Part shown: in pieces, positions 30,812-62,991 of the stretch
How the letters are laid out: every line of letters begins with the position of its first letter
How positions within the stretch are numbered: position 1 is the first letter of the stretch
Assembly: GCF_029978005.1 (NCBI RefSeq)
Contig: NZ_JARKOZ010000046.1
Coordinates: 62,001 to 126,000 of the forward strand
DNA length: 64,000 nt
Direction: 5' to 3'
DNA from: Solidesulfovibrio sp.
GTDB lineage: Bacteria > Desulfobacterota > Desulfovibrionia > Desulfovibrionales > Desulfovibrionaceae
The notes under the pieces: model-generated
Seen by the model: the letters and a program-made list of their open reading frames with translations, nothing else
What the model was told of the DNA's origin: nothing
Database searches by the model: none
Made by a program: the position numbers and the translations under genes

Positions 30812-32212
30812 CTAGGCGTTCATGGCGCGGCGCAGCGCCTCGAAAATCCTGTCGTCCGTGGATTGGGCGACGTTGAAGCGCATGAAGCCGCTCGCCGTGC
30901 GCGACGGACTGAAGGCGTTCCCCGGGGCGAGGATCACGCCGTCCCGCAGGCAGGTCCGGGCCACGGCGGCGGCATCCAGGCCGTCGGGCAATCGGCACCA
31001 GACGAACATGCCGGCCCGGGGCACGAGCCAGGGCCGCACCTCCAGAGGTTCGAGCCGGGCTACCACGCGTGCCATGGCCACGGCGAGCCGCGCCCGCACT
31101 GTTTCCATGTGCCTGCGATAGCCGCCGTCGGTCAGCGCCGCCAGCAGGAGGTCGGCGGACAGCCGGCCGCCGCCGAAATTCGTCGCGATCTTGAGGTCCG
31201 TGAGGGCCTCGATCCACTCGGGCCGCCCGGCGATGAAGCCGCAACGCACGGCGGCCGAGAGCGTCTTGGAAAAGCCGCCCACATGGATGACCCGCGAGAG
31301 CCCGTCGAAGGCGGCCAGCCTCGGCGCGGGCGCGTCCTCGAAATCGGCGAACGCGTCGTCCTCCACGATCACCAGGTCCGCGCGGTCGGCGAGCGTCAGG
31401 AGCCTGTGCGCCGTCACGGGCGAGAGCACCGCGCCGGTGGGGTTTTGGATCGCGGCGTTGGTGACGTACAGCCGGGGCTCGTGCGTCCGCAGGGCGGCCT
31501 CGAAGGCCGCGACGTCCGGCCCGTCCGGCGTGCAGGGTACCCCGGCGACCGTGACCCGGTGGGCCTTGAGCAGGGCGTGGAAGTTGAAATAGCAGGGGTC
31601 GTCCACCAGCACCGTGTCCCCGGGCTCGAGCAGGAAACGGCAGATGAGGTCCAGGGCATGGGTGGCGGATTCGGTCAGCAGGATGCGGTCCGGCCCGGCT
31701 TCGACGCCGCTGGCGGCCAGCCGCCGGGAAAGGACCTGGCGCAGGGCGGGCAGGCCTTGTGGCGGGGCGTAGTCCGCGAGGGCGGCGGCCTCGGCCCGGG
31801 CCAGGGCGCGCAAGGCCCGGCGCATTGTCGCTTCGGGCATCCATGAGGCGGGAAGCCAGCCGCAGCCCGGCTTGAGCACGTTATCGCCGGCCTCCAGGGC
31901 CTGGCGCGAGATCCACAGCGGATCGACCTCCCGGTCGAGTCGCGGCCCCATGGCGGCCAGGGCCAGGGGCGCGAGCGGGCCGGACACGTAAAAGCCCGAA
32001 CCGGGGCGCGACTGGACCACGCCCTGGGCCGCCAGCCGTTCGTAGGCCTCCACCACGGTGGATACGGAAAGCCCCATGGCCTTCGCCTGGGCGCGCACCG
32101 AGGGCAGCCGCACTCCGGGAAGCAGCGCCCGCGCCGCGATCCGGTCGCGGATCGCGGCCATGACGCGTTCGATCCGCGTGCCGACGCGCCTGTCTTCCGG
32201 GTCCTTTCCCAT
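30812..32212 (-). CDS. MocR-family regulator (GntR winged helix plus PLP aminotransferase-like domain)
   Basis: 466 residues. The N-terminal GntR-type helix-turn-helix reads IRDRIAARALLPGVRLPSVRAQAKAMGLSVSTVVEAYERL at residues 21-60. The aminotransferase fold-type I domain follows with DDPCYFNF, NPTGAVLS, VEDDAFADFED and GGFSKTLSAAVRCGF, where the lysine binds PLP. MocR proteins sense amino-acid- or vitamin-B6-related ligands and activate or repress a neighbouring gene, here probably the divergent DMT exporter 104 bases away. Confidence 0.9.
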   Translation of the reverse strand: MGKDPEDRRVGTRIERVMAAIRDRIAARALLPGVRLPSVRAQAKAMGLSVSTVVEAYERLAAQGVVQSRPGSGFYVSGPLAPLALAAMGPRLDREVDPLWISRQALEAGDNVLKPGCGWLPASWMPEATMRRALRALARAEAAALADYAPPQGLPALRQVLSRRLAASGVEAGPDRILLTESATHALDLICRFLLEPGDTVLVDDPCYFNFHALLKAHRVTVAGVPCTPDGPDVAAFEAALRTHEPRLYVTNAAIQNPTGAVLSPVTAHRLLTLADRADLVIVEDDAFADFEDAPAPRLAAFDGLSRVIHVGGFSKTLSAAVRCGFIAGRPEWIEALTDLKIATNFGGGRLSADLLLAALTDGGYRRHMETVRARLAVAMARVVARLEPLEVRPWLVPRAGMFVWCRLPDGLDAAAVARTCLRDGVILAPGNAFSPSRTASGFMRFNVAQSTDDRIFEALRRAMNA

Positions 32213-32245
32213 CCGTTATGCTCCAACGACCAGAACAGTTTTGCC

Positions 32246-32262
32246 GGATTGTGTTGGATTGT
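32246..32262. promoter_or_regulatory. Direct repeat in the MocR / DMT exporter intergenic region
   Basis: GGATTGT occurs at 32246-32252 and again at 32256-32262, exactly ten bases apart (one helical turn). MocR regulators often bind in-phase direct repeats between themselves and a divergent target, so this is the best candidate operator. Confidence 0.4.
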
Positions 32263-32316
32263 CCCTGGAAGGTCAACGCCCCTTGCCCGAAGGAAACGGG
32301 AAAAAGCGGGGCGCGC

Positions 32317-33177
32317 ATGGACAGGACGACCATCGGCTGGGTCAACGGATGCATCGGCATGGTGATTTTTTCCGGCTCGCTGCCGGCCACGCGGGCGGCG
32401 GTCATGGGCTTCGAGCCCTTTTTCCTCACCGCGGCCCGGGCGGCCGTCGCCGGGCTCCTGGCCCTGGCGCTCCTGGTCCTGCTGCGGCAGCGGCGTCCCG
32501 ACAGGCGGGACCTGCCGCCGCTTGCCGTGGTGGCCGGGGGCGTGGTCATCGGGTTTCCGCTGCTGTCGGCTCTTGCCTTGCGCCATGTCTCCGCCGCCCA
32601 TTCGCTGGTTTTCATCGGCCTCCTGCCCCTGGTCACGGCCGTTTGCGGCGCGTGGCGCGGCGGCGAGCGCCCTGGTCCGGCCTTCTGGGCCTTCTCGGTC
32701 CTCGGCGGCGTCCTGGTCGCGGCCTACGCCGCCGGCCAGGGCGAAGCGTCGCTCCCGGGCGACCTCCTCATGTTCGCCGCCGTCCTCGTCTGCGGCCTGG
32801 GCTACGCGGAAGGCGGCCGGCTCTCCCGCCGGCTCGGCGGCTGGCAGGTCATCTCCTGGGTCCTGGCGCTCTCCCTGCCCGTCACCCTTCCCCTGGCCGT
32901 GTGGGCCATGCCGGGGTCCTTCGCGGCCGTGGACGCGGCGGCCTGGGCCGGGCTGGCCTACGTGTCCCTTGGCAGCATGTTGCTCGGCTTCGTGTTCTGG
33001 TATCGCGGCCTGGCCCTTGGCGGCATCGCGGCCGTGGGGCAGTTGCAACTGCTCCAGCCCTTTCTCGGCCTCGTCCTGGCGGCCCTGCTGCTCGATGAGG
33101 CGGTGAGCCCGGCGATGCTCATGGTCGCGCTCGGCGTCGTGGCCTGCGTGGCCGGGGCGCGGAAGTTCGCCGCCTGA
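32317..33177 (+). CDS. EamA/DMT-superfamily transporter
   Basis: 286 residues from the ATG at 32317; an in-frame ATG at 32218 would put hydrophilic residues and the probable promoter inside the gene. About ten hydrophobic spans in two EamA repeats are visible (FFLTAARAAVAGLLALALLVLL, and YVSLGSMLLGFVFWYRGLALGG in the second half). Members export amino acids or metabolites across the inner membrane. The divergent MocR gene suggests it exports an amino-acid- or pyridoxal-related compound (inference). Confidence 0.85.
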   Translation: MDRTTIGWVNGCIGMVIFSGSLPATRAAVMGFEPFFLTAARAAVAGLLALALLVLLRQRRPDRRDLPPLAVVAGGVVIGFPLLSALALRHVSAAHSLVFIGLLPLVTAVCGAWRGGERPGPAFWAFSVLGGVLVAAYAAGQGEASLPGDLLMFAAVLVCGLGYAEGGRLSRRLGGWQVISWVLALSLPVTLPLAVWAMPGSFAAVDAAAWAGLAYVSLGSMLLGFVFWYRGLALGGIAAVGQLQLLQPFLGLVLAALLLDEAVSPAMLMVALGVVACVAGARKFAA

Positions 33178-33207
33178 CCCGGGCAGAATCTTTTTTGGGG
33201 ACAGCCT

Positions 33208-33233
33208 GGAATAAAAGGGTTCGGAAGGCGTAT
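33208..33233 (+). promoter_or_regulatory. Candidate ECF promoter for the sigma / anti-sigma operon
   Basis: GGAAT (33208-33212), 16-base spacer, CGTAT (33229-33233). The same -35/-10 pair with a 16-17-base spacer precedes the AcfC-like gene and the cytochrome P460 gene. The -10 box overlaps an ATG at 33232, so translation is more likely to begin at the ATG at 33268. Confidence 0.65.
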
Positions 33234-33267
33234 GTCGAGTGAACCACCTTTGCGTCACGGGGATGGG

Positions 33268-33777
33268 ATGGACAAGGACATTTCGCTGCTCATGGCGGAA
33301 ATCCCGCATCTGCGCCGGTATGCGCGGGCGCTGGCCCGCGACCCGCAGACGGCCGAGGATCTGGTGCAAAGCTGCCTGGAGCGGGCGCTTCGCCGCTTCC
33401 ACCAATGGCAGCGGGACCGGCGCTTGCGCCCCTGGCTGCTGGCCATCATGCACAACCTCCATGTCAGCGCGATCCGCCAGCGCGCCGGCGAGCCCGCGTC
33501 CGTGCCGCTGCACGAGACCATGGCCGCGGCCACGGCTGGCGACCAGGAGTCGCGGTTCGACGCGAAGCGCGTGCTGGAGGCGGCGCGGGAGCTGCCGGAA
33601 GACCAGCGCCTGGCCGTCCTGCTCGTTGGCGTCGAGGAAATGAGCTACAAGGACGCGGCCGAGATGTTGGGCATCCCCGTCGGCACCTTGATGTCCCGCC
33701 TGCACCGCGGGCGGGAGCAATTGCGCCGGCTGCTGGGACTGACCAAGGTCGTGCCCCTGCCTCAGCGGGCGAAGTGA
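33268..33777 (+). CDS. ECF-type RNA polymerase sigma factor
   Basis: 169 residues. Sigma region 2 is HLRRYARALARDPQTAEDLVQSCLERAL with the -10 recognition helix RRLRPWLLAIMHNLHVSAIRQ. Region 4 is VLEAARELPEDQRLAVLLVGVEEMSYKDAAEMLGIPVGTLMSRLHRGREQLRRLL, containing the -35 helix-turn-helix. The start is put at the internal ATG at 33268 because the predicted -10 element covers the ATG at 33232; the extra 12 residues would be untranslated. It is followed after 18 bases by a membrane anti-sigma gene, the normal ECF arrangement, and probably controls its own operon plus acfC-like and P460 genes. Confidence 0.9.
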   Translation: MDKDISLLMAEIPHLRRYARALARDPQTAEDLVQSCLERALRRFHQWQRDRRLRPWLLAIMHNLHVSAIRQRAGEPASVPLHETMAAATAGDQESRFDAKRVLEAARELPEDQRLAVLLVGVEEMSYKDAAEMLGIPVGTLMSRLHRGREQLRRLLGLTKVVPLPQRAK

Positions 33778-33795
33778 CCAGGGAGGACGGAAGCC

Positions 33796-34566
33796 ATGAG
33801 CGCCGACCGACACCGTGCCGTGACCATCGAAGAACTGCATGCCTACGTCGACGGGCAACTGCCCCGGGAGCGCGTCCCCGAGGTCGAGGCCCGTCTGCTG
33901 GCCGATCCGCTGGCGGCGGCCCAGGTACGGGACTATCAAGCCATAAACGCGGCCCTGCGCGCCGCCTTGGATCCGGGCCTGCCTGAAGCCGGGGATACGC
34001 CGTCGCCGCGGCCGGCTCTCCTGCCGGCCCGTCGCCGCGCGTGGCTGCGGATGGCCATGGCGGCCGCCTTCGCCGGCCTGCTCCTCGGCGGGGCCGGCGG
34101 CTGGCTGTCGCGCGGCTATCTGCGGGGCGACGTGCCGGAGATGCAGGCGTTGGCCCGTCACGCCGCGGCGGCCTACCAGGTGTTCGCCCCGGACGTGATC
34201 CATCCCGTGGACATGGCGGAGTCGGACCGTCTGACGGCCTGGCTCTCCAACCGCATGAACATGGATTTCCCGGTCCCGGAGCTGAGCCAGGCCGGCTTCA
34301 GGCTGGTGGGCGGCCGGCTCATGGTGGGCGACGGCCGGCCGGCCGGCATGCTCATGTACGAAAACGGCCAGGGCCGGCGCATCGTGCTCTACGTGCGCAA
34401 CGACCTGCCGGCCGGCGATCCGACCAGGATGCGCCACGAAAGCACGGCCGCCGGCGCCACGGTCTACTGGCGGGACGCGGCGGCAGGCTTCGCCCTGGCC
34501 GGCGGCTTTCCCGAGCCGGAGCTGCGCTCCATCGCCAACCTCATCCGCGCCCGGTTCACGTCCTAG
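33796..34566 (+). CDS. Membrane-anchored anti-sigma factor
   Basis: 256 residues. The N-terminal cytoplasmic helix HRAVTIEELHAYVDGQLPRERVPEVEARLLADP is the usual anti-sigma pattern, here without the HxxxCxxC zinc motif. One transmembrane span lies near residues 84-104 (MAMAAAFAGLLLGGAGGW). The 150-residue periplasmic part (FAPDVIHPVDMAESDRL, GFRLVGGRLMVGDGRPAGMLMY) would sense an envelope signal. It lies directly behind the sigma gene and should hold the sigma factor at the membrane until released. Confidence 0.88.
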   Translation: MSADRHRAVTIEELHAYVDGQLPRERVPEVEARLLADPLAAAQVRDYQAINAALRAALDPGLPEAGDTPSPRPALLPARRRAWLRMAMAAAFAGLLLGGAGGWLSRGYLRGDVPEMQALARHAAAAYQVFAPDVIHPVDMAESDRLTAWLSNRMNMDFPVPELSQAGFRLVGGRLMVGDGRPAGMLMYENGQGRRIVLYVRNDLPAGDPTRMRHESTAAGATVYWRDAAAGFALAGGFPEPELRSIANLIRARFTS

Positions 34567-34592
34567 ACGACGCGATAAATCCCGCTCCTCAG

Positions 34593-34619
34593 GGAATAAA
34601 GGCCACCCCTTCGTCGTAT
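34593..34619 (+). promoter_or_regulatory. Candidate ECF promoter for the AcfC-like gene
   Basis: GGAAT (34593-34597), 17-base spacer, CGTAT (34615-34619), continuing as CGTATATGTC. It lies 27 bases after the anti-sigma stop and would give a leader of about 100 bases before the ATG at 34726. Confidence 0.65.
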
Positions 34620-34725
34620 ATGTCCGTGAAGGGATGTCTTCGGCTCCACGGCCGCCCCGTCTGGGAACGTCCCCGGGCCGGGCGGCCCTGGCCGAACAGG
34701 AACGCAACAACCTCGGGAGAACACC

Positions 34726-35505
34726 ATGAAGAAGATCCGGACAGCGATTTTCGGCGCGCTCGTCGCCGCCATGGCCTTCGGCGCGACGGCGGCCTTCGCC
34801 CAGGAAACGCTCTATCTCTACGGCCCGGGCGGGCCGTATCCGGCCATGCGCGAAGCCGCGGCCGCCTTCGGCCAGGCTCGCGGCGCCCATCTTGAAGTGA
34901 CGGCCGGCCCTACCGGCAAATGGCTGGACAAGGCCAAGGGGGACGCGGACCTCATCTTCAGCGGCGCGGAAAACATGATGACCGATTTCGTCAAGGCCAT
35001 GGACGGCCGCATCGACGAGGCCAGCATCACCCCGCTCTACCTGCGCCCTTCGGCCATCCTCGTCAGGCCGGGCAACCCCAGGGGGATAAAGGGCGTTACC
35101 GACCTCTTCAAGCCGGGGCTCAAGGTCCTCGTCGTGCAGGGAGCCGGGCAAAACGGCCTGTGGGAGGATGTGGCCGGCCGCAAGGGCGACATCCGCAGCG
35201 TCAAGGCCCTGCGCGGCAACATCGTCGCCTTCGCCGCCAACAGCGCCGAGGCGAAAAGCCTCTGGACCGAAAGGACGGACATCGACGCCTGGCTCATCTG
35301 GAACATCTGGCAGGTGGCCAACAAGGACCTGGCCTCGCTGGTGCCCACGGAAAAGGACTACACCATCTACCGGGACTGCGGCGTCGCCCTGACCAGGCAG
35401 GGCAAGGAAAAGCCCCTGGCCAGGGAGTTCGTCGCCTTTCTGCAGTCCAAGGAAGGCGCGGCCATCTTCGCCAAGTGGGGCTGGCTGACCGACGCGCCCC
35501 GCTGA
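34726..35505 (+). CDS. AcfC-like periplasmic substrate-binding protein
   Basis: 259 residues with a Sec signal peptide (MKKIRTAIFGALVAAMAFGATAAFA, cleavage near 25). The mature protein is a molybdate/sulfate-type extracellular solute-binding fold close to accessory colonization factor AcfC: LYLYGPGGPYPAMREAAAAFG, VTAGPTGKWLDKAKGDADLIFSGAENMMTDF and GVALTRQGKEKPLAREF. It probably binds an oxyanion or other small anion in the periplasm. No ABC permease or ATPase gene is adjacent, so it may serve as a sensor or sequestering protein. The ECF promoter motif upstream suggests stress control. Confidence 0.88.
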   Translation: MKKIRTAIFGALVAAMAFGATAAFAQETLYLYGPGGPYPAMREAAAAFGQARGAHLEVTAGPTGKWLDKAKGDADLIFSGAENMMTDFVKAMDGRIDEASITPLYLRPSAILVRPGNPRGIKGVTDLFKPGLKVLVVQGAGQNGLWEDVAGRKGDIRSVKALRGNIVAFAANSAEAKSLWTERTDIDAWLIWNIWQVANKDLASLVPTEKDYTIYRDCGVALTRQGKEKPLAREFVAFLQSKEGAAIFAKWGWLTDAPR

Positions 35506-35816
35506 ACCCGCCGTCCTCGCGGCGGCGGGCGCGGGCCTTCCCGCGTCGACCTCCCGGGCAAGGGGCCGCCGCGACGAGGACGGTCCGGGCCCGGCGGGCG
35601 GGACAGGCGCGGGAAGATCCGCGCGCAGGCGAGGCAGGGCAGGGGGACGGCCTGGGAAGGGCCCCCTGCCCTGCGGCGCTCGGCGGAAGCCACAGCAACA
35701 GGCGGGCGAAACGACGCCTTGCGTCACAGTGAAATGCGTGACCGCCAGCAAGGTGCTCATGGTGGGCAGGTCCAATGTAGCAAGATAGGATTTTTTCGCC
35801 ATAGTGCATGTATATT

Positions 35817-35842
35817 GGAATATTGTTTTCCGGGAAGCGTAT
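35817..35842 (+). promoter_or_regulatory. Candidate ECF promoter for the cytochrome P460 gene
   Basis: GGAAT (35817-35821), 16-base spacer, CGTAT (35838-35842). The third copy within 2.7 kb of the motif that precedes the sigma gene itself. A start about seven bases on would give a 30-base leader to the ATG at 35879. Confidence 0.65.
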
Positions 35843-35878: not shown

Positions 35879-36385
35879 ATGAGACGTCACTGCGTGCTGG
35901 CCCTGGGATTTGTTTTGGCATTTGCGGCGGCGGCCTGGGCCGCGGACCTGGCCGCCCCGTCGCCGAACGGCCTGAAGATGCCGCCGGGCTTCGAGAACTG
36001 GGCGGTGATTTCCATCTCGCACCGTCTGGACAACAAGAGCATGCGCGTCATCCTCGGCAACGACGTCGCCGTCAAGGCCGCGCGCGGCGGGCGGATAAAC
36101 CCCTGGCCGGACGGGGCCATCCTGGCCAAGGTGGTCTGGAAGGAGAAGCCCGAGGAGGGCTGGCCGGACGCCATCGCCCCGGATGCGCTGGTACATGCCG
36201 AATTCATGTACAAGGACAGCAAGCGGTTCGCGGCCAACGGCTCGGGCTGGGGCTGGGCGCGCTGGCTCGGCAAGGAGCGCCGGCCCTACGGCCAGGACGC
36301 CGGGGTCGAGGGCGAATGCATCCGCTGCCACGCCCCCGTGCGCGACAGGGACTGGGTCTTTAGCGTTCCGGCCCCCATGCCCTGA
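35879..36385 (+). CDS. Cytochrome P460-family c-type heme protein
   Basis: 168 residues with a signal peptide (MRRHCVLALGFVLAFAAAAWA) and one CxxCH heme-binding motif, CIRCH at residues 147-151. The body has P460-family segments: FENWAVISISHRLDNKSMRVILGND, GAILAKVVW and AEFMYKDSKRFAANGSGWGWARW. Cytochromes P460 oxidise hydroxylamine and the related c'-beta proteins bind NO in the periplasm. A lysine in the KD segment (FMYKDSKR) could be the heme cross-linking one, but this needs alignment. The ATG has AAGGAGG upstream and an ECF promoter motif in front, suggesting induction by envelope or nitrosative stress (inference). Confidence 0.85.
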   Translation: MRRHCVLALGFVLAFAAAAWAADLAAPSPNGLKMPPGFENWAVISISHRLDNKSMRVILGNDVAVKAARGGRINPWPDGAILAKVVWKEKPEEGWPDAIAPDALVHAEFMYKDSKRFAANGSGWGWARWLGKERRPYGQDAGVEGECIRCHAPVRDRDWVFSVPAPMP

Positions 36386-36476: not shown

Positions 36477-38714
36477 ATGAAGCATCGGCGCATCTTTTCC
36501 AGGCCCCTGTCCTTCCGTGGTTCCCTGCTCGTCGTGCTGGCGTCGCTCGGCGTGGTGTTCTCGCTTTTGGGGGCGACCGTCATCGGCCTTCTTTCCCGCA
36601 GCGAACTGGAGCGCACGACGGGCGACAACCTGGAAGACCTCGCCTTCCAGATGGCCGACAAATTCGACCGGGGCATGTTCGAACGGCAGCGGGAGATCGT
36701 GCTGCTGGCGCGCCGTTCCGTGCTGCGGGACCCGGCCGTGTCGACGGCGCGCAAACGGGCCGCGCTGGAGGATGCCAAGGCGACGCTCCCCATCCATGCC
36801 TGGATCGCCGTGGTCTCGCCCGAGGGGCGGGTGGTCGCGGCCACCGGAGGCGTCCTGGAAGGGCAGGACATTTCCGGGCGCCCCTGGTTCCAGCCCGGGC
36901 GCAAGGGGCCTTTCGTGGGCGACGTGCACGGCGGGGCGCTCCTGGCCGGCTGCCTTCCGGCCCCGGCGGACGGCAACCTCCGCTTCGTCGACGTGGCCGC
37001 CCCCCTGCTGTCCGAAGACGGCCGCCTGGTCGGCGTGCTGTGCTCGCACCTCACCTGGGAATGGGCCAGGGAGGTCGAGGAGTCGCTTTTTCGCGACCTG
37101 AAGCGCGGACGCGACATCGAGCTGTTCGTCTACAGCGGCGCGGGCGAGCCGCTGCTCGTGCCCGCGGGCTCCCGCCCCGGGCAGTGGCCCCGCCTCGACG
37201 TCCTCTCTCCGGGCCGGCGCAACGCGGCGGGAAACGCCGTGCTGCGCTGGCCCGACGGCGAATACGTCACCGGCTTCGCCCCGGAAGGCGGCTACCGCGA
37301 CTATCCCGGGCTGGGCTGGACCGTGCTCGCCCGGCAGAAGACCGCCGTGGCCTTCGCCCCGGCCCAGGCCCTGCTCGTCAGGGCGCTTTTCGTCGGCGGG
37401 GCCATCGGCCTGCTGGCCGTGCTGCACGGGCTTGCCGCCTCCGGGCGGCTGACGCGCCCGCTGGCCTCCATCGGCCGGGCGGCCGAGGCGATCCGCCGGG
37501 GCGATCTGGGCGTGCGCATCCCCCTGCTCGACAGCCCGGCGGAACTGGCCGCCCTGTCGCAGTCCCTGGGCACCCTCGTGGCCGCGCTGCTCTCCAAGAA
37601 CCAGGCCTTGTCCGCCGTGCGCGCGTCCCTGGAGGAAAAGGTCCGGGAACGCACGGCCGCGCTGCTCAACAACCAGCAGTTGCTGCTGCAGACGCAACGC
37701 ATCGGCAGGATCGGCGGCTGGACACGCAACAGGGAGGGCACGTCGCGGCAGTGGACGGCGGAAATCTTCCGGCTGCTGCGCCTGCCCGAGGGCCCGACCC
37801 CGGATGCGCGCGTCGTGGGCATGCTGTTCGCGCCCTCGGACCAACGGCTCCTCGAAGACGCCATGGAGAAAGCCTGGCGCGACGGCGAAGCCTTCGACCT
37901 GAACCTGCAGCTCGCGGACCGAGGCCAGGGACGCCGCTGGCTGCGCGTCATGGGCAAGCGGGACGTGGCGCAAGGCCCCCCCGCCCTTTCGGGCATCGTG
38001 CAGGACGTCACGGACCAGGTCCTCTTGGAGGAACTGCACGAGGACATGGACCGCATCGCCCGCCACGACCTGAAGTCCCCCCTCAACGGCATCGTCACGC
38101 TGCCGCAATTGATGCTGGAAGACCCCAACCTCACGGACGAGCAGCGGGAATACCTCAAGATGATCCGCGAGGCCGGCGTCGGCATGCTCGACATGATCAA
38201 CCTTTCCCTGGCCCTTTTTCGCATGGAGCAGGGGACGTACGCCCTGTCGCCGCGACCGGTGGACATGCTCGAAGTGCTGCGTCGGGTGCTCGGCGACCAG
38301 ACCGGCCTGATCCGTTCCAAGGGCCTGTCCGTGAGCGTGGCGTTCGAGGGCCGGCCCGTCGACGAAACGACGCAGGGTTTCGCCCTGGCGGAAGAGATAT
38401 TGAGCTACGCCCTGCTCGCCAATCTGGTCAAAAACGCCCTGGAGGCCATGCCCGCCGGCGGCACGCTGCACGTCAACCTGAGCCGGAGACAGGATTTCTA
38501 CGTCGCCTTGCGCAATGGGGGCGAAGTCCCGGCCGCGATTCGCGACAAGGTCTTCCAGAAATACGTCACCGGCGGGAAACAGGGCGGAACCGGGCTCGGC
38601 ATGTACTCCGCCAGGCTCATGGCCAGGACCATGGGAGGGGACCTGCTGCTCGATGCGTCGGAATCTGGCCACACGACCTTGCGTCTTCGCCTGCCGCTGC
38701 CCGAAGTTCCGTAG
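36477..38714 (+). CDS. Membrane sensor histidine kinase (dCACHE-like, HAMP, PAS-like, HisKA, HATPase)
   Basis: 745 residues from the ATG at 36477. Two transmembrane spans (about 15-37 and 300-322) enclose a periplasmic dCACHE-like sensor (SPEGRVVAATGG, DISGRPWFQPGR, GLGWTVLARQ). HAMP follows (LTRPLASIGRAAEAIRRGDLGVRI), then a coiled coil, a PAS-like segment near 415-520, the phospho-acceptor box HDLKSPLNGI (H about 532) and the ATPase boxes NLVKNALEAMP and GGTGLGMYSARLMA. No response regulator gene is adjacent, so it is an orphan kinase. It is downstream of P460 on the same strand. Confidence 0.9.
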   Translation: MKHRRIFSRPLSFRGSLLVVLASLGVVFSLLGATVIGLLSRSELERTTGDNLEDLAFQMADKFDRGMFERQREIVLLARRSVLRDPAVSTARKRAALEDAKATLPIHAWIAVVSPEGRVVAATGGVLEGQDISGRPWFQPGRKGPFVGDVHGGALLAGCLPAPADGNLRFVDVAAPLLSEDGRLVGVLCSHLTWEWAREVEESLFRDLKRGRDIELFVYSGAGEPLLVPAGSRPGQWPRLDVLSPGRRNAAGNAVLRWPDGEYVTGFAPEGGYRDYPGLGWTVLARQKTAVAFAPAQALLVRALFVGGAIGLLAVLHGLAASGRLTRPLASIGRAAEAIRRGDLGVRIPLLDSPAELAALSQSLGTLVAALLSKNQALSAVRASLEEKVRERTAALLNNQQLLLQTQRIGRIGGWTRNREGTSRQWTAEIFRLLRLPEGPTPDARVVGMLFAPSDQRLLEDAMEKAWRDGEAFDLNLQLADRGQGRRWLRVMGKRDVAQGPPALSGIVQDVTDQVLLEELHEDMDRIARHDLKSPLNGIVTLPQLMLEDPNLTDEQREYLKMIREAGVGMLDMINLSLALFRMEQGTYALSPRPVDMLEVLRRVLGDQTGLIRSKGLSVSVAFEGRPVDETTQGFALAEEILSYALLANLVKNALEAMPAGGTLHVNLSRRQDFYVALRNGGEVPAAIRDKVFQKYVTGGKQGGTGLGMYSARLMARTMGGDLLLDASESGHTTLRLRLPLPEVP

Positions 38715-51077: not shown

Positions 51078-52188
51078 CTCCGCCTCCGTCGGATTCGAGG
51101 CGGCTAAAGCGAGACTGACCGAAAGCGTCCAGAGCTAGGGCGGCGATGCGCGCTGGGCGCGTCATGCGTCCAGGTCCGCCAAGGACCATGGCCGCCCGGG
51201 AGAGCGGGTCGGGCCGGCCAAGGCGCGACAGAGGCGAGCGTCGGTAGCGGTCGAAAGCCCGTCGGTCGTGGATCATGGCCCCGAAGCAGGCGAAATACCA
51301 GTACCTCCCGATCACCGAGGCCAGGGCGGCCCGGGGCAGGAAGCCTGCGGCGTCGTTGGCGGCGACGATCCGTGTCAGCCAGTCTTCGGCCTGGGCCAGG
51401 AAGTCGCAGTCGTCGGGGATGGCCAGCCCCAGGCACGGCCCGAGGCTCACGGCGTGGTGCAGGGAGATGTCCTCGTCGGTCGGGGTCAGCCCCAGGTGGG
51501 CCAGGGCCTTGCCCATGGAACGCATGCGCGCGGCGGCCTGCTTGGCCTGGGAATGGCGCGCGCCCATCTGGCCGGCGTGGCGGCGGTAGCGCAGAAGCGG
51601 CCTGGGAAGGTTGGCGAAGGCGAACCGGCCCATGGCCCGGACCCAGAGGTCGTAGTCCTCGCCGTAGCGGACGGCCGGATCGTAGCCGCCGAGGGTCTCG
51701 AGCACCTCCCGGCGCAGCATGACCGTGGGGTGCATGACCGGGCAGGAAAACAGCAGTTCGGCCCGGATAGCGGCATCTTCCGTGGGCAGGCGCACGATGC
51801 GTCGGGGCGGAGCGCCAAAAGTGCGCAAAAACGTGCCGCACACGGCCACATCTTGGTGAGCGTCGAGAAACGTCGCCTGGTGCGCCAGCCGTTCGGGCAG
51901 GCTGACGTCATCGGCGTCCATGCGGGCGAGAAGCCGGCCGTCAGCAACCGCGGCCGCAGCATTGAGGCTCGCACCCAGGCCGCTTTTTATGCGGTGCAGC
52001 ACACGAAGGCGGCTGTCCTCCCGGGCGATGAAGTCAAGGATGGCGGGTGTGGTGTCGGTGCAACCGTCGTCGACGGCCACGACCTCAATGTTGGCAAGGG
52101 TCTGGGCCAGGAGACTGGACAGGCTCTCCCGGATGTGCGCCGCGTCGTTGTGTACGGCCAGAAGGACGGAGACGGCTGGCCTAGTCAT
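51064..52188 (-). CDS. Family-2 glycosyltransferase
   Basis: 374 residues. VSVLLAVHNDAAHI, VVAVDDGCTDTT, LLARMDADDVSLPERL (DAD) and YGEDYDLWVRAM are intact GT-A motifs, with a helical C-terminal 130 residues. The start codon overlaps the preceding stop (ATGA at 52185-52188). One of several GT2 enzymes assembling the repeat unit. Confidence 0.87.
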   Translation of the reverse strand: MTRPAVSVLLAVHNDAAHIRESLSSLLAQTLANIEVVAVDDGCTDTTPAILDFIAREDSRLRVLHRIKSGLGASLNAAAAVADGRLLARMDADDVSLPERLAHQATFLDAHQDVAVCGTFLRTFGAPPRRIVRLPTEDAAIRAELLFSCPVMHPTVMLRREVLETLGGYDPAVRYGEDYDLWVRAMGRFAFANLPRPLLRYRRHAGQMGARHSQAKQAAARMRSMGKALAHLGLTPTDEDISLHHAVSLGPCLGLAIPDDCDFLAQAEDWLTRIVAANDAAGFLPRAALASVIGRYWYFACFGAMIHDRRAFDRYRRSPLSRLGRPDPLSRAAMVLGGPGRMTRPARIAALALDAFGQSRFSRLESDGGGDART

Positions 52189-53174
52189 GGAGCGCCCTTG
52201 CGCTTGCCCATCACCGGGGGAGAAGTTCCGGAAAATGATGGAAGATCACCAAGGGAAGGCGTGCGTCCCGTAAAAAACCACCGCAAGTGCCGTAGCGCCC
52301 TGACCTGCCTCGACGGAAGCCCTCGGCGCATGTCGTCAAGCCGATGCAGCAATCGCATCCGTCGCCAGAGTTCCAGGCGGGCCATAGGGTAATATGGGGT
52401 CCATGCCAAGCCGCACAACAGGCTGGCGGCGTATTCAGGAAACCGTTCTAAGGGGCAGGACAACTCAAGAAGTCGATAAGGAGAAGGTCCTTCCTGGCAT
52501 AGGCTATCTCCAGATTCGAGAACTAACCGCTTATGGAAAAGGACTTGGGGCTGAATTGCGATTCCGGCCTCGGCCAACGCCGTGAGGACGAACGCCATGT
52601 CCGATCCCCATACGTTGGGCATGGGACTTTTCTCCATGGCCCTGCGGCACACAGGCGTGCGGTAAATGCTGTATATGAGATTCGCCTTGCCCAATGCTTC
52701 TGGAGAAAGCAGATACCGGCGGATAGTACGGAAGCAGGCCTTGCCGGCCAAGCCGGGAATGTCGGGATATTGTCGTATGGGGCGACCGCAGGAGTCGGTG
52801 TTGTCCAAACCGGTGAAGGCCATGCCGCGCCGCGGGTGTGCCCGTAGTTGGTCGAGGCAGGTCTGGATGAAGTTGGGTTCCCAATGGTCGTCGGCAGCAG
52901 CCCACATGAAATATGGGGTGTCCGCCTGATCCAGGAGGAATCGAAAATTATTCGCCGCGCCAATGTTCACGGCATGACGGAAATAGCGTATGCGCCCGTC
53001 CCGAGCAGCATACCGTTCGAGAATTTCGCCGGTACCATCTGTGGAGGCGTTGTCCGCCGCGATCAGCCGCCAATCCTCTACGGTCTGGACAAGGAGCGAT
53101 TCCAGGGTCTCGGCGAGAAAACGCTCCCCGTTGTGGACAGGCAGACCGATCAAGAGTGCCGGGGTGCCGTTCAT
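52185..53174 (-). CDS. Family-2 glycosyltransferase
   Basis: 329 residues. LLIGLPVHNGERFL, LIAADNASTDGT, YFMWAAADDHWEPNFI (AADD in place of DxD, common in this subgroup) and a C-terminal helical region. Base composition falls towards the start of the gene (52400-53170), unlike the downstream neighbours, and its ATG overlaps the stop of a gene fragment at 53171. The changing composition marks the edge of an inserted or rearranged segment. Confidence 0.83.
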   Translation of the reverse strand: MNGTPALLIGLPVHNGERFLAETLESLLVQTVEDWRLIAADNASTDGTGEILERYAARDGRIRYFRHAVNIGAANNFRFLLDQADTPYFMWAAADDHWEPNFIQTCLDQLRAHPRRGMAFTGLDNTDSCGRPIRQYPDIPGLAGKACFRTIRRYLLSPEALGKANLIYSIYRTPVCRRAMEKSPMPNVWGSDMAFVLTALAEAGIAIQPQVLFHKRLVLESGDSLCQEGPSPYRLLELSCPLERFPEYAASLLCGLAWTPYYPMARLELWRRMRLLHRLDDMRRGLPSRQVRALRHLRWFFTGRTPSLGDLPSFSGTSPPVMGKRKGAP

Positions 53175-53434
53175 CGAGGACCGCCCAGTTTCCAGCGTTT
53201 AATCATATAGTCGTTGTCCCGCCAAATATGTCGTGCAACCGCTCTTGAAAGGATATGCATCTCCTCGGTCTCAAGCTGAAACATCGCCGGTGGTCTTAAT
53301 ATCGGAGACACAAAGCCAGGGTGGGCAGGAACGCATCCGTAAGGAAGACAGCAGCCAGCCACTCGTAATTTCTCATTTTGTCTGGGCGTACATTTCAGAG
53401 AAGGTCCTTTTGTAGAACTCTTCTTTAGGCAAGT
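53171..53434 (-). pseudogene. Fragment of an unidentified protein upstream of a glycosyltransferase
   Basis: An open frame of 87 codons ending in a TGA that overlaps the next ATG (ATGA), the coupling used by intact genes here. Its last 50 residues (PAMFQLETEEMHILSRA, IWRDNDYMIKRWKLGG) look protein-like but there is no start with a ribosome site. In another frame a short stretch ends in EMYAQTK with an ATGA overlap into a 26-codon frame, as if two former genes had frameshifted. No family recognised. Confidence 0.35.
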
Positions 53435-53663
53435 CTACAAAAAGGACTTTGTGACGGAACTAAATAAATCGGCCGTCTCTGGATGGGAACTCTTCGGCAA
53501 TTCACGGTGTTTTTTGTAGAGGAACTATTGGCATGTATATGAATAGGTCTGCTTCTGTAGCAACTTTAGCACTCGACGCAATAATGCGAGATGACTGTAC
53601 GCCGGTACACCTTATAGTCACAGGGGCGCTACGCTCTCCTTTCGCCCGTGTGGAGGACAGCTT
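53435..53663. other. AT-rich spacer between wzt and the glycosyltransferase genes
   Basis: With the fragment above, this makes a 489-base stretch without an intact gene. An imperfect inverted repeat, arms GTCCTTTTGTAGA at 53404-53416 and TCTACAAAAAGGAC at 53434-53447, is followed by a third TTTTTGTAGA at 53511-53520. This could be a terminator or the ends of a lost mobile element; no transposase remains. Confidence 0.45.
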
Positions 53664-54977
53664 TTATGTGGTCCGCTCAACAGTCCATTGCAATTGAGGT
53701 CGAACCAAGCCAGGAATGGATTGCATATAGCCGTTGCGGTAGGATAGGTCTGTCAAGTCGTCTTTTACTTCGAAAGTCAGCGCATAGGGTGCAGAAAAAT
53801 GTATGATAACGTAATCCTGAAATGAACTTAACGCTAGCATGACTCGAAAGACGCCGTCATTGAGAAGGTGTGAGGGGATTTGACATGTTGCAGTATAGAG
53901 CCCAGGTCCATAGCTTTCGATGATGTCATTCGCGGGGTTAACGACGCCGATCAGGATGTTCTCCATATTGTAAATATGGAAATTGGGAACAAGATATCTG
54001 TCTGCCGGAGCAAAGACACGATAGCGCATTTCCAAGTAAATGGGCTTGTCAATGGCGTGCGTTGCGCTGATATTTCCCGCCGTGTCGCGCACGCAGGCCT
54101 CGACCAGTTCGGCGCACGCATCGCCGAACTGCTTGTCGGGCTGGAAAACCGCCATGACGTCTGGGAGTTTGTTGTCTGTCTCAGTGAGAAGAGGCAGTCC
54201 CATGTATTCCTTGATGGCGTTGGCCGTGGGGCCGAAACAGCGAATGCGCCCTTTTTCCAGAAGAATGGCCTGCGGACATAGCTGAACTACCGATTGCATG
54301 TTGTGGCTTACGAAAATGATCGTACGCCCTTCCTTTTGGACATATTGCATCTTTTGCAGGCATTTTTGCTGGAAGCGCAAATCGCCGACGGCAAGTACCT
54401 CGTCAAGAATCAGGATTTCAGGATCAAGGTGGGCCGCGACGGCAAAAGCCAAGCGCACATACATGCCGCTGGAATAATATTTTACAGGTGTATCGATAAA
54501 TTTTTCTATTTCTGAAAAATCGACGATTTCATCGAATTTCTTTTTGATCTCGCCCCTGGGCATACCCAGTATGGTGCCATTGAGAAAGATATTCTCTCGC
54601 CCCGTCAATTCAGGATGAAAGCCCGTGCCGACTTCCAGCAAACTCGAGATCCGACCATGTATTGTGATGCGCCCCGTGCTGGGTTCGGTGATACGGCTAA
54701 GGATTTTAAGCAGGGTAGATTTGCCGGCACCGTTTTGGCCGATGACGGCGAGGTTCTGTCCATGGGCGATTTCGAAGGAAACGTCGTCAAGGGCCTTGTA
54801 GGGTTCTGTGCCGGCAAGGTCCTCTTTTTCCCCAGGCAGGAGGGCGCGCAACCTGAGACGGGCCTGGAGGCGTCGCAGACGCTGTTCGACGGCCTCGCGG
54901 AACGAGGTGACTTTTCGCCCTTTATGGCTGATGTGATAGGTCTTGGAGACGCTTTCGGCTTTGACGGCGTAGGACAT
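53664..54977 (-). CDS. wzt: Wzt-type polysaccharide ABC exporter ATPase with C-terminal sugar-binding domain
   Basis: 437 residues from the ATG at 54977. ABC motifs: Walker A IGQNGAGKSTLLKIL, signature YYSSGMYVRLAFA, Walker B PEILILDEVLAVGD and the switch VSHNM. The nucleotide domain takes residues 1-265; the rest is a beta-rich Wzt_C domain (LEMRYRVFAPADRYLVPNFHIY, GVFRVMLALSS) that binds the glycan end to be exported. It powers export of lipid-linked O-antigen through Wzm. Base composition is lower than downstream genes. It starts one base after the wzm stop. Confidence 0.93.
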   Translation of the reverse strand: MSYAVKAESVSKTYHISHKGRKVTSFREAVEQRLRRLQARLRLRALLPGEKEDLAGTEPYKALDDVSFEIAHGQNLAVIGQNGAGKSTLLKILSRITEPSTGRITIHGRISSLLEVGTGFHPELTGRENIFLNGTILGMPRGEIKKKFDEIVDFSEIEKFIDTPVKYYSSGMYVRLAFAVAAHLDPEILILDEVLAVGDLRFQQKCLQKMQYVQKEGRTIIFVSHNMQSVVQLCPQAILLEKGRIRCFGPTANAIKEYMGLPLLTETDNKLPDVMAVFQPDKQFGDACAELVEACVRDTAGNISATHAIDKPIYLEMRYRVFAPADRYLVPNFHIYNMENILIGVVNPANDIIESYGPGLYTATCQIPSHLLNDGVFRVMLALSSFQDYVIIHFSAPYALTFEVKDDLTDLSYRNGYMQSIPGLVRPQLQWTVERTT

Positions 54978-54978
54978 G

Positions 54979-55821
54979 CTAGAGATAATCCACGAACATG
55001 GTTTCGACCTTGCGGAAGTACCGCAATCCCGTCCAGAGGAAAAAAATCGTGACGCCGATGGAAACGAACATGCCCGGCAGGTAGACTTGGCTGGCGCTGC
55101 CGAGTTGCGACCAACGGAACATATCGATGATGCCGACCATGGGATTGAGCGAATACAATATCTTGAAGCGTTCAGGCACCAGGGTTGCGCTATAGCCCAC
55201 AGGGGAAATGTAGATGCCGATCTGCAGCAGGAAGGGGACGAGGTGGCGGAAGTCGCGGTAACGTACGTTAAGGGCCGCGCCCCACAACCCGAAGCCGAAA
55301 GCGAGCAGTACCGTCCATAATGTGAGGAGAGGCAAGAGAAACAGGCCCCGACCGTTGAAGACACCACTTGCCATGGCAAACAGCATGAACAGGAGGCAGG
55401 AGACGGCGTAGTCCACGAGGTTAATGCCCACGGCGGCACAGGGGACGAGCAGGCGGGGGAAGTATATCTTGCCCACGATGCTGCTGTTGCCAAGGATGCT
55501 GTTGCTGACGTCGATGACGATGTTGGAGAACAGGGTCCACGGCAACATACCGGCGAAGACAAGCAGGGGGTAGGGCAGGCCGTTGGAGGCCATGGAGGCC
55601 ACCGTTCCGAAGACGAAGGAGAAGATCAATAGGGTCACGAGGGGTCGCAACGCCACCCAAGCCACGCCGATGAGGGTCTGCTTGTAGCGCACCCGCAGGT
55701 CGCGCAGGATGAGTTCCTGTAGGAATTCCCGGTGTTGCCACATGTCCCGCCAGTAGTCCTTGGCCAAGTGGCCGGCCTCGATGACCGTGGCATGAGCGTT
55801 TTCGGACAAGGGTTTGGGCAT
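54979..55821 (-). CDS. wzm: Wzm-type polysaccharide ABC exporter permease
   Basis: 280 residues. The ABC-2 polysaccharide-export pattern is clear: LRDLRVRYKQTLIGVAWVALRPLVTLLIFSFVFGTVA at the amphipathic coupling helix and first span, IYISPVGYSATLVPERFKILYSLNPMVGIIDMFRW near the end, and about six spans in all. It forms the membrane channel with Wzt. The pair shows that this locus uses the ABC-transporter-dependent rather than Wzy-dependent route. Confidence 0.93.
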   Translation of the reverse strand: MPKPLSENAHATVIEAGHLAKDYWRDMWQHREFLQELILRDLRVRYKQTLIGVAWVALRPLVTLLIFSFVFGTVASMASNGLPYPLLVFAGMLPWTLFSNIVIDVSNSILGNSSIVGKIYFPRLLVPCAAVGINLVDYAVSCLLFMLFAMASGVFNGRGLFLLPLLTLWTVLLAFGFGLWGAALNVRYRDFRHLVPFLLQIGIYISPVGYSATLVPERFKILYSLNPMVGIIDMFRWSQLGSASQVYLPGMFVSIGVTIFFLWTGLRYFRKVETMFVDYL

Positions 55822-55949
55822 GGTGTGACAATCTCGCAGTCGGCTGTTGGCGTCAGGTCAAGACCAGAAAGAGACCGCGCCGAGACTCCCTAGCCTTCGC
55901 CTCCAGCCGTGTCAAGACGAGGGCACGGCAAGTGGGAGACCAGACAAGC

Positions 55950-56765
55950 TTACTTGCCGGCGGCGTGATTAAGGTATTGTAGTTGCAAAGCCCGGATCAG
56001 AGAGAGCTTCAAGGATTTGCGGGAGAAAAGCGGGTTACCAAATTTATGGTAAGGTGGCTCCAGGCCCAGGTTAACTCGAAAAAGGTATTCTCGGGCGAAG
56101 TTGTTCTCCATAATTAACGCGAAGTTGAGTTTGGCGGCCTCCACGGGGGAAATGGTCGGTAGCTCCTTCTCGTGGCCTGCGTTGGCGTGGACAAAGAAGG
56201 CATTGGTGCCAAGGAAGCCCACTAGGCGGTAGCCCATCTGCCTGCCAACGGCTACGTACCGACCCAAGGGTTGGCCAGGATCGCTGCCTGAAGGGCGGGG
56301 CGGCACGGGTGTCTCGTCGTCCGCGATGTGGCAGGTGTGGGCTTCCACGCAGACAACAAGTGGCGGTGTGGTAAATTCCTTCAGAGAGGAGAATATCTCG
56401 AAGTCAAGACCGTCTATATCTATGCTAACAAAGTCGAAGCGATCGGTAATGCCATAGCGGTATGCGATCTTGGCCAAAGAATTTGTCGATCCGTCAACGA
56501 ACTCTAGGGCGCATATCCCTTCAGACCCAGGAGGATAAGTTTTAAGGAGGTCCTTAAAGCGGTCCTTGTCGCCTTCGATGAGTAGGCCACGCCATCCTGT
56601 TTCAAGTAGCGCCCGCGTGTTAGAGAGATGGATGCCATCCCAAGCACCGAATTCACAGCAAAGTCCCTTGTTAATGCCGAGAATGAAAACGATGTGCTTG
56701 ATGATGCCCTCCTCGCCGGACTGGCTGTAGCCAGTATGCCGATATTCAATTAACGATTTTTCCAT
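55950..56765 (-). CDS. FkbM-like SAM-dependent methyltransferase
   Basis: 271 residues. SQSGEEGIIKHIVFILG then CCEFGAWDGIHLSNTRALLETGW (SAM loop), GLLIEGDKDRFKDL, FDFVSIDIDGLDFEIFSSL and VCVEAHTC follow the FkbM-like order found in polysaccharide gene clusters. Lower GC and different codon choice than downstream genes suggest recent acquisition. It may cap the glycan chain with an O-methyl group, which in Wzm/Wzt systems can stop chain growth (inference). Confidence 0.78.
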   Translation of the reverse strand: MEKSLIEYRHTGYSQSGEEGIIKHIVFILGINKGLCCEFGAWDGIHLSNTRALLETGWRGLLIEGDKDRFKDLLKTYPPGSEGICALEFVDGSTNSLAKIAYRYGITDRFDFVSIDIDGLDFEIFSSLKEFTTPPLVVCVEAHTCHIADDETPVPPRPSGSDPGQPLGRYVAVGRQMGYRLVGFLGTNAFFVHANAGHEKELPTISPVEAAKLNFALIMENNFAREYLFRVNLGLEPPYHKFGNPLFSRKSLKLSLIRALQLQYLNHAAGK

Positions 56766-59942: not shown

Positions 59943-60959
59943 TCATTGCGGCGCAAGGCCCAAAAGCCGTCGCCAGGTCTTGCGGGACAGAGCCCGCCGC
60001 CAGAAAACGGCCCAGGCGCCGCGCCCCGGAGGGGCCGGCCGGCCCGTGGCCCGGACGTAATGGTGGGCCAGGTTGTCGCAGTACCATTCGAGCTTGGCCC
60101 ACAGGGCCGGGTTGCGCCGGTCCGGATCGATGCCGCCGGCCGCCCGGCGCACCAGCTTCAGGATGGCCGTGATGTTGGCCTGGGGTGAAAGGCGCGACGG
60201 CGCGGCGTGGATCAGGGCTGCGGCATCGGCCGCCGGCCGGGGAACGTCGGCCAGGCCGGCCGCCAGGGCGATGTTTTCCGCGCTGATGCGCAGCAATTTG
60301 TCCAGGAAGGGATTCGCGCCGGCCCGCGACATGCTGCCCGACACCTCGCGGTAATGCACCAGGCGCTCCGGGAGGTTGGCCACGGCATGGCGCCTGGCCA
60401 GGCGGGACCACAGCTCGTAGTCCTCGGGCGGCTGGCGGTCGGGGTCCGTGGTGTAGCCGCCGGCGGCGAGAACCATGTCCCGGCGCAGCATGACCGAGGA
60501 GTGGACGAAGGGGTTGTTGAACAACAGATCCAGCCTGAGGATGGCGGTGTCGACGGGGTGATCGTGGAAGCGGCCCGTGGGCGCATCGTCCACCGTGATG
60601 ATGGCCCGGGTGCCGAGTAGGACGCAGTCCGGATGCGCATCCATGAAGGCCACCTGCCGTTCAAGCCGGCAAGGATCGGACAGGTCGTCTTGGTCTTGAC
60701 GAGCGATATAGGGTCCCCTTGCCAGGGAAATTCCCCGGTTGAGGGTCGCGGCGAGCCCCGTGTTCTCCTGGCGCAGCAGCCGGATGCGCGGATCGTCGAT
60801 GGCGGCGGCCACGGCGTAGGACTCGTCGCGGGAGCCGTCGTCGATGATGATGCACTCGAAGTCGCCGAACGTCTGGGAGAGGATGGATTCAACGGCGGCG
60901 CGCAGATAGAGCGCGCCGTTGTAGACCGGCAGGACCACGGAGACCTTGGGCGCGTTCAC
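59943..60959 (-). CDS. Family-2 glycosyltransferase
   Basis: 338 residues starting at a GTG that overlaps the fucosyltransferase stop (GTGA). VSVVLPVYNGALYL, CIIIDDGSRDES, YIARQDQDDLSDPCRLE (DQDD metal site) and PEDYELWSRLARRH define an intact catalytic domain of 230 residues plus a helical tail. It closely resembles the enzyme at 51064 in layout. Confidence 0.87.
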   Translation of the reverse strand: MNAPKVSVVLPVYNGALYLRAAVESILSQTFGDFECIIIDDGSRDESYAVAAAIDDPRIRLLRQENTGLAATLNRGISLARGPYIARQDQDDLSDPCRLERQVAFMDAHPDCVLLGTRAIITVDDAPTGRFHDHPVDTAILRLDLLFNNPFVHSSVMLRRDMVLAAGGYTTDPDRQPPEDYELWSRLARRHAVANLPERLVHYREVSGSMSRAGANPFLDKLLRISAENIALAAGLADVPRPAADAAALIHAAPSRLSPQANITAILKLVRRAAGGIDPDRRNPALWAKLEWYCDNLAHHYVRATGRPAPPGRGAWAVFWRRALSRKTWRRLLGLAPQ

Positions 60960-61885: not shown

Positions 61886-62000
61886 AAGCTAAAAACTACT
61901 GGTGACTTGCCCATTGGCGCGGTCATTTTTTTCTCATGGCCTTGTAGGAGGGGCATCTAAATTTATTCTGCGCACAAAAAACAATTGTAAAAATCTCGAT

Positions 62001-62924: not shown

Positions 62925-62991
62925 GGTCTAGCCTCACTCTGGCTATTTAATAATCATGGGTAAACTCCCAGCTTTGTCGGGGCGCGTGACT

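Follow-up and report, generated by a model that had tools for sequence, protein, structure and literature searches.

What does an extracytoplasmic function (ECF) sigma factor control, and what would set it free, when one promoter motif stands ahead of its own operon, of an AcfC-like binding protein and of a cytochrome P460? The locus that raises this question lies in a stretch of 64,000 nucleotides from Solidesulfovibrio sp. (contig NZ_JARKOZ010000046.1, positions 62,001 to 126,000 of the forward strand), hereafter the window, in which an earlier note made from the sequence had pointed to three shared promoters. Our analysis suggests, with a probability of roughly one half for the reading as a whole, an ECF26-like (RpoE1-type) sigma/anti-sigma island that is triggered by a sulfur oxyanion and drives itself, the AcfC-like protein and P460. 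Under this reading the sigma factor would be kept bound by the membrane anti-sigma until the periplasmic domain of the latter detects a sulfur oxyanion (sulfite or a sulfite-yielding compound). Once free, the sigma would transcribe its own operon together with the genes for the anion-binding protein of the periplasm and for P460, a periplasmic haem enzyme that would most likely act on hydroxylamine or nitric oxide (NO).

The promoter motif and the genes behind it

The island consists of the following features, in window coordinates:

33208..33233, + strand: ECF26-type promoter 1, GGAATAAA / CGTATGT, GGAAT-N16-CGTAT, preceding the sigma/anti-sigma operon
33268..33777, + strand: ECF sigma factor, 169 aa, with Pfam sigma region 2 and region 4
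33796..34566, + strand: predicted anti-sigma factor, with N-terminal helices, a predicted helix (80-109) over a hydrophobic stretch and a periplasmic beta domain
34593..34619, + strand: ECF26-type promoter 2, GGAATAAA / CGTATAT, N17, preceding the AcfC-like gene
34726..35505, + strand: AcfC/PEB3-family periplasmic binding protein (SBP_bac_11), from Pfam and structure-sequence matches
35817..35842, + strand: ECF26-type promoter 3, GGAATATT / CGTATAT, N16, 62 nt 5' of the P460 ATG
35879..36385, + strand: cytochrome P460 (PF16694), 168 aa, start ATG 35879 after AAGGAGG

The three sites that had been claimed are all there, on the + strand at 33208 (N16), 34593 (N17) and 35817 (N16). They fall inside 2.6 kb, each ahead of a gene, and compare with 0.06 sites of GGAAT-N16/17-CGTAT expected in the window; at least three were found in 0 of 100 shuffles. 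The genome scan that the earlier note had proposed (4.82 Mb, 224 contigs) returned seven exact sites, against two for the reversed pattern. Three of the seven are those of the island, and the other four lie in or antisense to open reading frames (ORFs): one within an ORF, one within a low-scoring ORF of 96 aa and two within ORFs in antisense orientation, of which one is some 250 bp away from the end of a contig. None of these four pairs A at -35 position 6 with CGTATRT, and the extended form GGAATA...CGTATRT is found, among the seven, at the three window sites only.

Conservation points the same way. Within the genus (14 genomes) the anti-sigma, a close AcfC and the EamA neighbour all occur in the same two genomes, the source genome and one relative, G160, and across the family (247 genomes) anti-sigma matches with E values below 1e-100 are confined to these two, with three further weak matches at 3e-4 to 5e-4. 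AcfC-like proteins occur in 19 of the 247, those above 60% identity again in the source genome and G160 only (81% between the two; next best 39%). In G160 a TetR gene and another, unassigned region lie between the AcfC gene and the sigma operon, and the two are convergent; the motif is kept both ahead of sigma and ahead of the relocated AcfC gene. At the sigma promoter the -35 element GGAATAAA agrees at 8/8 positions and CGTAT at 5/5, as opposed to 6/13 of the other spacer bases and 17/40 upstream; the AcfC promoter likewise agrees at 8/8 and 5/5, with 8/14 of the other spacer bases and 15/40 upstream. The motif is thus conserved at both testable genes, two of the three, in the one relative that keeps the operon, and the sigma and AcfC genes very likely share a promoter type. 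A chance origin of the motif is ruled out by the window and genome counts together with its conservation in G160.

A looser pattern, GGAATA-N14/16-CGTNT, gave 12 sites in the source genome, the three window sites included (reversed control, 2), and 17 in G160 (reversed control, 4). Of the nine outside the window, considered as additional regulon members and taken as chance, seven lie in or antisense to ORFs, one is intergenic with no same-strand gene nearby, and the ninth is a near-motif with a shorter spacer (contig C42, position 47283). It stands ahead of two genes, for an SBF-family transporter and for an LMWPc phosphatase, a pairing that looks like an arsenic resistance operon.

P460 itself is found in 1 of the 14 genus genomes, which places promoter 3 beyond conservation testing and leaves room for the view that only the sigma and AcfC promoters are real, the P460 match being a coincidence in an AT-rich intergenic stretch. 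The -35 extension of promoter 3 is indeed ATT rather than AAA, and its surroundings are locally AT-rich (45% GC). Against coincidence, however, stand an exact -35 and -10 on the right strand 62 nt from an ATG, the CGTATAT extension, the mere seven exact sites genome-wide, and a position weight matrix (PWM) score of 21.5 that was equalled by 0 of 200 shuffles of its own stretch (the site being in the training set). We judge the coincidence improbable, and hold with considerable confidence that P460 is a third member of the regulon.

The sigma factor, the anti-sigma and their kin

The sigma protein carries sigma-2 and sigma-4 domains only, as befits an ECF factor. The first ATG of its ORF (33232) falls within the -10 box of promoter 1, so that a sigma expressed from this promoter must start further downstream, most likely at ATG 33268 (MDKDISLL...), which has a counterpart in G160 (alignment judged by eye). 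The protein is 79% identical to its G160 homologue and 57-58% to those of Salipiger, Pelagibius and Tropicimonas.

The product of 33796-34566 appears to be the anti-sigma, judging from where its gene lies, from the homologues that follow related sigmas and from the shape predicted for it. It has no Pfam match above cut-off and scores far under the cut-off of the anti-sigma model NF052375, while zf-HC2 is matched by 10/16 of the aligned homologues. The AlphaFold model has a mean pLDDT (predicted local distance difference test) of 84.3 and the hydropathy maximum is a modest 1.56; by homology and model the protein would follow the RpoE1-type layout of a downstream anti-sigma with an N-terminal domain, one membrane helix and a periplasmic C-terminal domain. 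A Foldseek search with the model found nothing at E values of 0.001 or below. RseB chains were among the top matches (probability 1.0, E value 0.005, root-mean-square deviation 3.0 over 92 columns), a weak likeness that would fit a periplasmic stress sensor and is suggestive only.

To place the sigma among its kin, contigs were scanned with a sigma alignment through two short peptide patterns, which gave 51 loci, by their titles mainly from alpha- and gammaproteobacteria; a maximum likelihood tree was built from 34 rows, namely 25 hand-picked loci out of these 51, the window, G160 and seven rows from plasmid records. The window and G160 sigmas fall in a set of eight (support 98/99) whose other members come from Salipiger, Pelagibius, Tropicimonas, a Hyphomicrobiales metagenome-assembled genome, Sulfitobacter and Gemmobacter, and two sigmas on the side of the sulfite oxidases branch separately, on long branches. 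This alphaproteobacterial nesting and the patchy presence suggest a transfer into the genus, and the island was probably acquired horizontally.

The exact motif recurs in 6/51 sigma loci, with six sites and none for the reversed pattern: before sigma (locus L052), 404 bp before the sigma match (L054), once in L094, and before genes for a YncE-like propeller (L055), a Lipoprotein_15 protein (L056) and a catalase-family protein (L102). L056 and L057 carry Lipoprotein_15 genes near sigma. Among the 51 loci, two gave matches to AcfC-like genes (L053, L057) and none to P460. We also scanned 37 upstream stretches with the PWM, which was trained on 15 known sites that score high by construction; at n=37, single values of about 1/200 are weak. 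Matches outside the training set at 1/200 shuffles or fewer were found before sigma in Gemmobacter, Pelagibius, both Sulfitobacter loci and OFTM307, and before the Sulfitobacter sulfite oxidase, the Rhizobium rhizoryzae DUF305/YncE gene and the Comamonas and Pelagibius AcfC genes. No match at 1/200 or fewer was found before AcfC in Rhizobium rhizoryzae, Massilia (7/200 shuffles as good), Acinetobacter, Bradyrhizobium, Novosphingobium, Komagataeibacter, Sulfitobacter, Aminobacter or Gemmobacter (11/200 as good), and none within 250 bp upstream of the Tropicimonas sigma. With the motif conserved at both genes kept in G160, and the same or a close motif at alphaproteobacterial sigma operons, the proposal of one autoregulated ECF factor with three targets holds up well.

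The putative trigger and the role of P460

Published systems, cited here from those parts of the papers that were available, narrow the choice of trigger. ECF26 promoters have the consensus -35 GGAATA and -10 GT (PMC6180224), which the window promoters fit, and the RpoE1 promoter is given as GAAT-N18-GTCT (PMC3616915). In S. meliloti the ECF26 factor RpoE1, which sulfite-yielding compounds activate, has SMc02156 as a target (PMC3511301, PMC6180224). We matched the published SMc02156 promoter at 39/39 positions just 5' of an unannotated S. meliloti stretch (CP090106.1), and the protein encoded there is related to AcfC, with 39% identity to that of the window; in the same record the published rpoE1 promoter was matched at 39/39 before a sigma/anti-sigma operon. 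The promoter match and the homology make the AcfC family an established ECF26 target. The earlier note had called its combination undescribed, and for this half of it that no longer stands, an ECF26 sigma driving an AcfC-family protein (SMc02156) being on record in the available parts of those two papers; for P460 with an ECF sigma, the single literature search run found no paper combining the two. Neither did we find a paper combining ECF sigma, anti-sigma and AcfC; a broader search gave, among the matches listed, the S. meliloti paper as the only one to mention ECF26. Nothing on P460 in an ECF regulon appeared among the listed matches for P460 and Desulfovibrio, nor, judged by titles, anything on such a switch for ECF sigma, Desulfovibrio and sulfite.

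That the island includes an anion-binding partner is borne out in kind. The window protein has AcfC/PEB3 homology over most of its length (3fir, E value 9e-51; 4jb7, 3e-49), its best plasmid homologues are 57-66% identical, and the V. cholerae AcfC has been proposed as a sulfate binder (PMC5976639, as far as available). We surveyed 13 AcfC loci in plasmid-collection records with flanks of 4-12 kb, a non-random sample drawn from the match list and including one unannotated locus (L108); the counts stand without a background rate. Six of the 13 (L104, L106, L123, L124, L127, L129) carry genes either for a sulfite oxidase or a pair resembling sorAB, or for an exporter, be it TauE/SafE for sulfite or the putative YeiH type for sulfate. 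Weaker sulfur links exist in three more, through a sulfate-binding protein (L107) and through transporters of the TDT/SLAC1 family, which we take to be connected with sulfite export (L103 and L126, closely similar islands), and no such link was seen in L105, L125 and L128. The gene divergent from AcfC in G160 belongs to PF03601, presumably the putative sulfate exporter (YeiH) family; by PWM no convincing ECF motif was found ahead of it (16/200 shuffles as good).

A general response to periplasmic oxidants or envelope stress, as in ECF26-type regulons with catalase-family, Lipoprotein_15, DUF305 and beta-propeller genes, would agree with the exact motif before the catalase-family, YncE-like and Lipoprotein_15 genes named above and with the weak resemblance of the anti-sigma periplasmic domain to RseB. 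It agrees less with AcfC-family proteins as proposed sulfate binders and with sulfite or sulfate-export genes at 6/13 AcfC loci, and we regard it as a tentative possibility.

The closest solved relative of the window P460 is that of Methylococcus capsulatus (McP460; 6hiu, E value 1e-48), whose chain numbering agrees with the published residue numbers. K84 aligns at the cross-link Lys78, R56 at Arg50 and E108 with the distal carboxylate Asp102 (Glu96 in NeP460, from Nitrosomonas europaea), and C147IRCH is the CXXCH haem c site. The lysine cross-link and distal carboxylate are features of hydroxylamine-oxidising P460s, one or both being missing in inactive ones (PMC11928373, as far as available), and by alignment the window P460 would have both. 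Within the family P460 is found in 14 of 119 genomes, with E values below 1e-28 in five, the source genome among them. Side by side with these data we note a Rhizobium leguminosarum plasmid (L153, 5896-8681) on which a P460-family gene (37% identity) is followed, after about 1.1 kb, by one for a sulfite oxidase, another loose tie between P460 and sulfite genes.

The earlier note had proposed a reactive-nitrogen or envelope stress response. Spelled out, the reactive-nitrogen theme would have the anti-sigma sense NO, nitrite or hydroxylamine stress and P460 act as the main effector, removing hydroxylamine and NO. In its favour, P460 retains the cross-link lysine, an Arg cap like that of the active McP460 and, as distal carboxylate, a Glu such as NeP460 has. 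However, no P460 was found in G160, where sigma, anti-sigma, AcfC and both promoters are all kept; P460 is therefore not required for the switch, and P460 as a defining part of it is ruled out. The sigma kin and AcfC neighbourhoods point towards sulfur, and those relatives that have been studied are connected with sulfite or with compounds that yield it. The theme is thus the less supported one, and we consider it unlikely; a sulfur oxyanion, for which taken by itself we see an even chance, appears the likelier trigger on comparison with these systems.

By gene content the host would be a dissimilatory sulfate or sulfite reducer: dsrA scores above its curated cut-off in 12 of the 14 genus genomes, twice in the source genome, and a control for the dsrA model on 14 genomes gave sub-cut-off signal in eight and none above it. 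(On contigs C177 and C69 each full-length dsrA is followed by a weaker dsrA-model match, probably dsrB.) Several observations weigh against the sulfur-oxyanion island nonetheless. Sulfite is a normal intermediate of sulfate reducers, so induction by sulfite is not obvious in such an organism. In S. meliloti added sodium sulfite (up to 50 mM) failed to activate the factors (PMC3511301), and sulfite is the direct signal for the sulfite-oxidase-linked RpoE4 and SigE, with RpoE1 a secondary, species-specific regulator answering to other signals, taurine in S. meliloti and tetrathionate in Starkeya (PMC6527743). The window sigma is just 38% identical to RpoE1 (an identity figure, not an assignment by the ECF classification models), and RpoE1, identified through its published promoter, forms a long, unplaced branch in a tree that holds no outgroup from another ECF group. 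In its own tree the window AcfC lies apart from the clade that unites SMc02156 with the proteins of Sulfitobacter, Aminobacter, Gemmobacter and Pelagibius, so that the target in common is the family and not an orthologue, and among the seven AcfC homologues scanned outside that clade and the genus a clear motif was found in Comamonas only. None of the sulfite and export queries run against the window gave a match, and by PWM no ECF motif was found ahead of three P460 genes elsewhere (Photobacterium, G023, R. leguminosarum).

Alternatively, P460 might stand in for the sulfite oxidase of an ECF island that senses sulfite, and act on sulfite chemistry itself, which we think quite unlikely; likewise doubtful are the forms this might take, in which P460 would handle products of sulfite with nitrite or NO, or would bind sulfite at its haem. 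If true, P460 would have a part in sulfur stress, beyond nitrification and methanotrophy, and sulfate reducers would possess a periplasmic sensor for their own respiratory intermediate. To our knowledge little is known of what P460 does outside nitrifiers and methanotrophs, and membership in a regulon would tell when it is needed. More generally, a sulfite-linked ECF switch in a dsrA-bearing, sulfite-making organism would be a regulator for sulfur-oxyanion stress in the periplasm. All three promoters are short and clearly bounded, and they lend themselves to testing.

Surroundings of the island and comparison with known systems

Three further genes flank the island:

30812..32212, - strand: GntR/aminotransferase regulator, a neighbour conserved in both genomes, with a weak motif-like match ahead (8/200 shuffles as good)
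32218..33177, + strand: EamA transporter, a neighbour of the sigma operon conserved in both genomes, with no motif found ahead
36477-38714, + strand: Cache-HAMP-PAS histidine kinase, directly after P460, with no ECF motif found ahead

An open frame of 1375 aa (31675-35802, - strand) runs antisense over most of the island in sequence of 69% GC and looks like a mechanical ORF rather than a gene. Elsewhere in the window the GC content falls to 0.55 (52001-56000) and 0.59 (60001-64000), compared with about 0.70 in much of it, as in acquired DNA.

Set against known systems, the island is of a described kind, an ECF26-like system with an AcfC-family target, and what is new is the dsrA-bearing host and P460. 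With S. meliloti RpoE1/EcfR1 it shares an autoregulated ECF sigma with a downstream membrane anti-sigma, a promoter of the form GGAATAAA..GT and an AcfC-family target, SMc02156, a protein that co-purified with SorT, a sulfite dehydrogenase (PMC3511301, PMC6180224). It differs in its -10 (CGTAT rather than GTCT), in the added P460, in the dsrA-bearing host and in an AcfC of another clade; one query for the Lipoprotein_15 gene of the RpoE1 operon arrangement found no match in the window or in the G160 locus (L044). The Starkeya RpoE1 activates a DUF305/propeller promoter (PMC6527743). The AcfC and PEB3 binding proteins are of the same family as the window protein by sequence, but the latter stands behind an ECF-type promoter. 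Similarly, the P460s of M. capsulatus (6hiu) and N. europaea are alike in the lysine, the carboxylate and CXXCH, the window protein mixing an Arg cap as in McP460 with a Glu carboxylate as in NeP460, whereas its gene lies behind an ECF-type promoter in a host that bears dsrA. Queries with the S. pontiacus sulfite oxidase and a Massilia molybdopterin oxidoreductase found no sulfite-oxidising enzyme in the window or L044. The sulfite-oxidase-linked ECF islands (RpoE4-SorT of S. meliloti, SigE-SorAB of Starkeya novella, the Sulfitobacter pontiacus plasmid and Aminobacter pUSP5) are alike in being compact and in joining a sigma/anti-sigma pair to a redox enzyme of the periplasm. On the S. pontiacus plasmid the order is sigma, anti-sigma, AcfC-like gene, sulfite oxidase and cytochrome c, with about 0.9 kb unlisted before the oxidase; the sulfite oxidase is there the next listed gene past the AcfC-like one, and the window has P460 at a comparable place.

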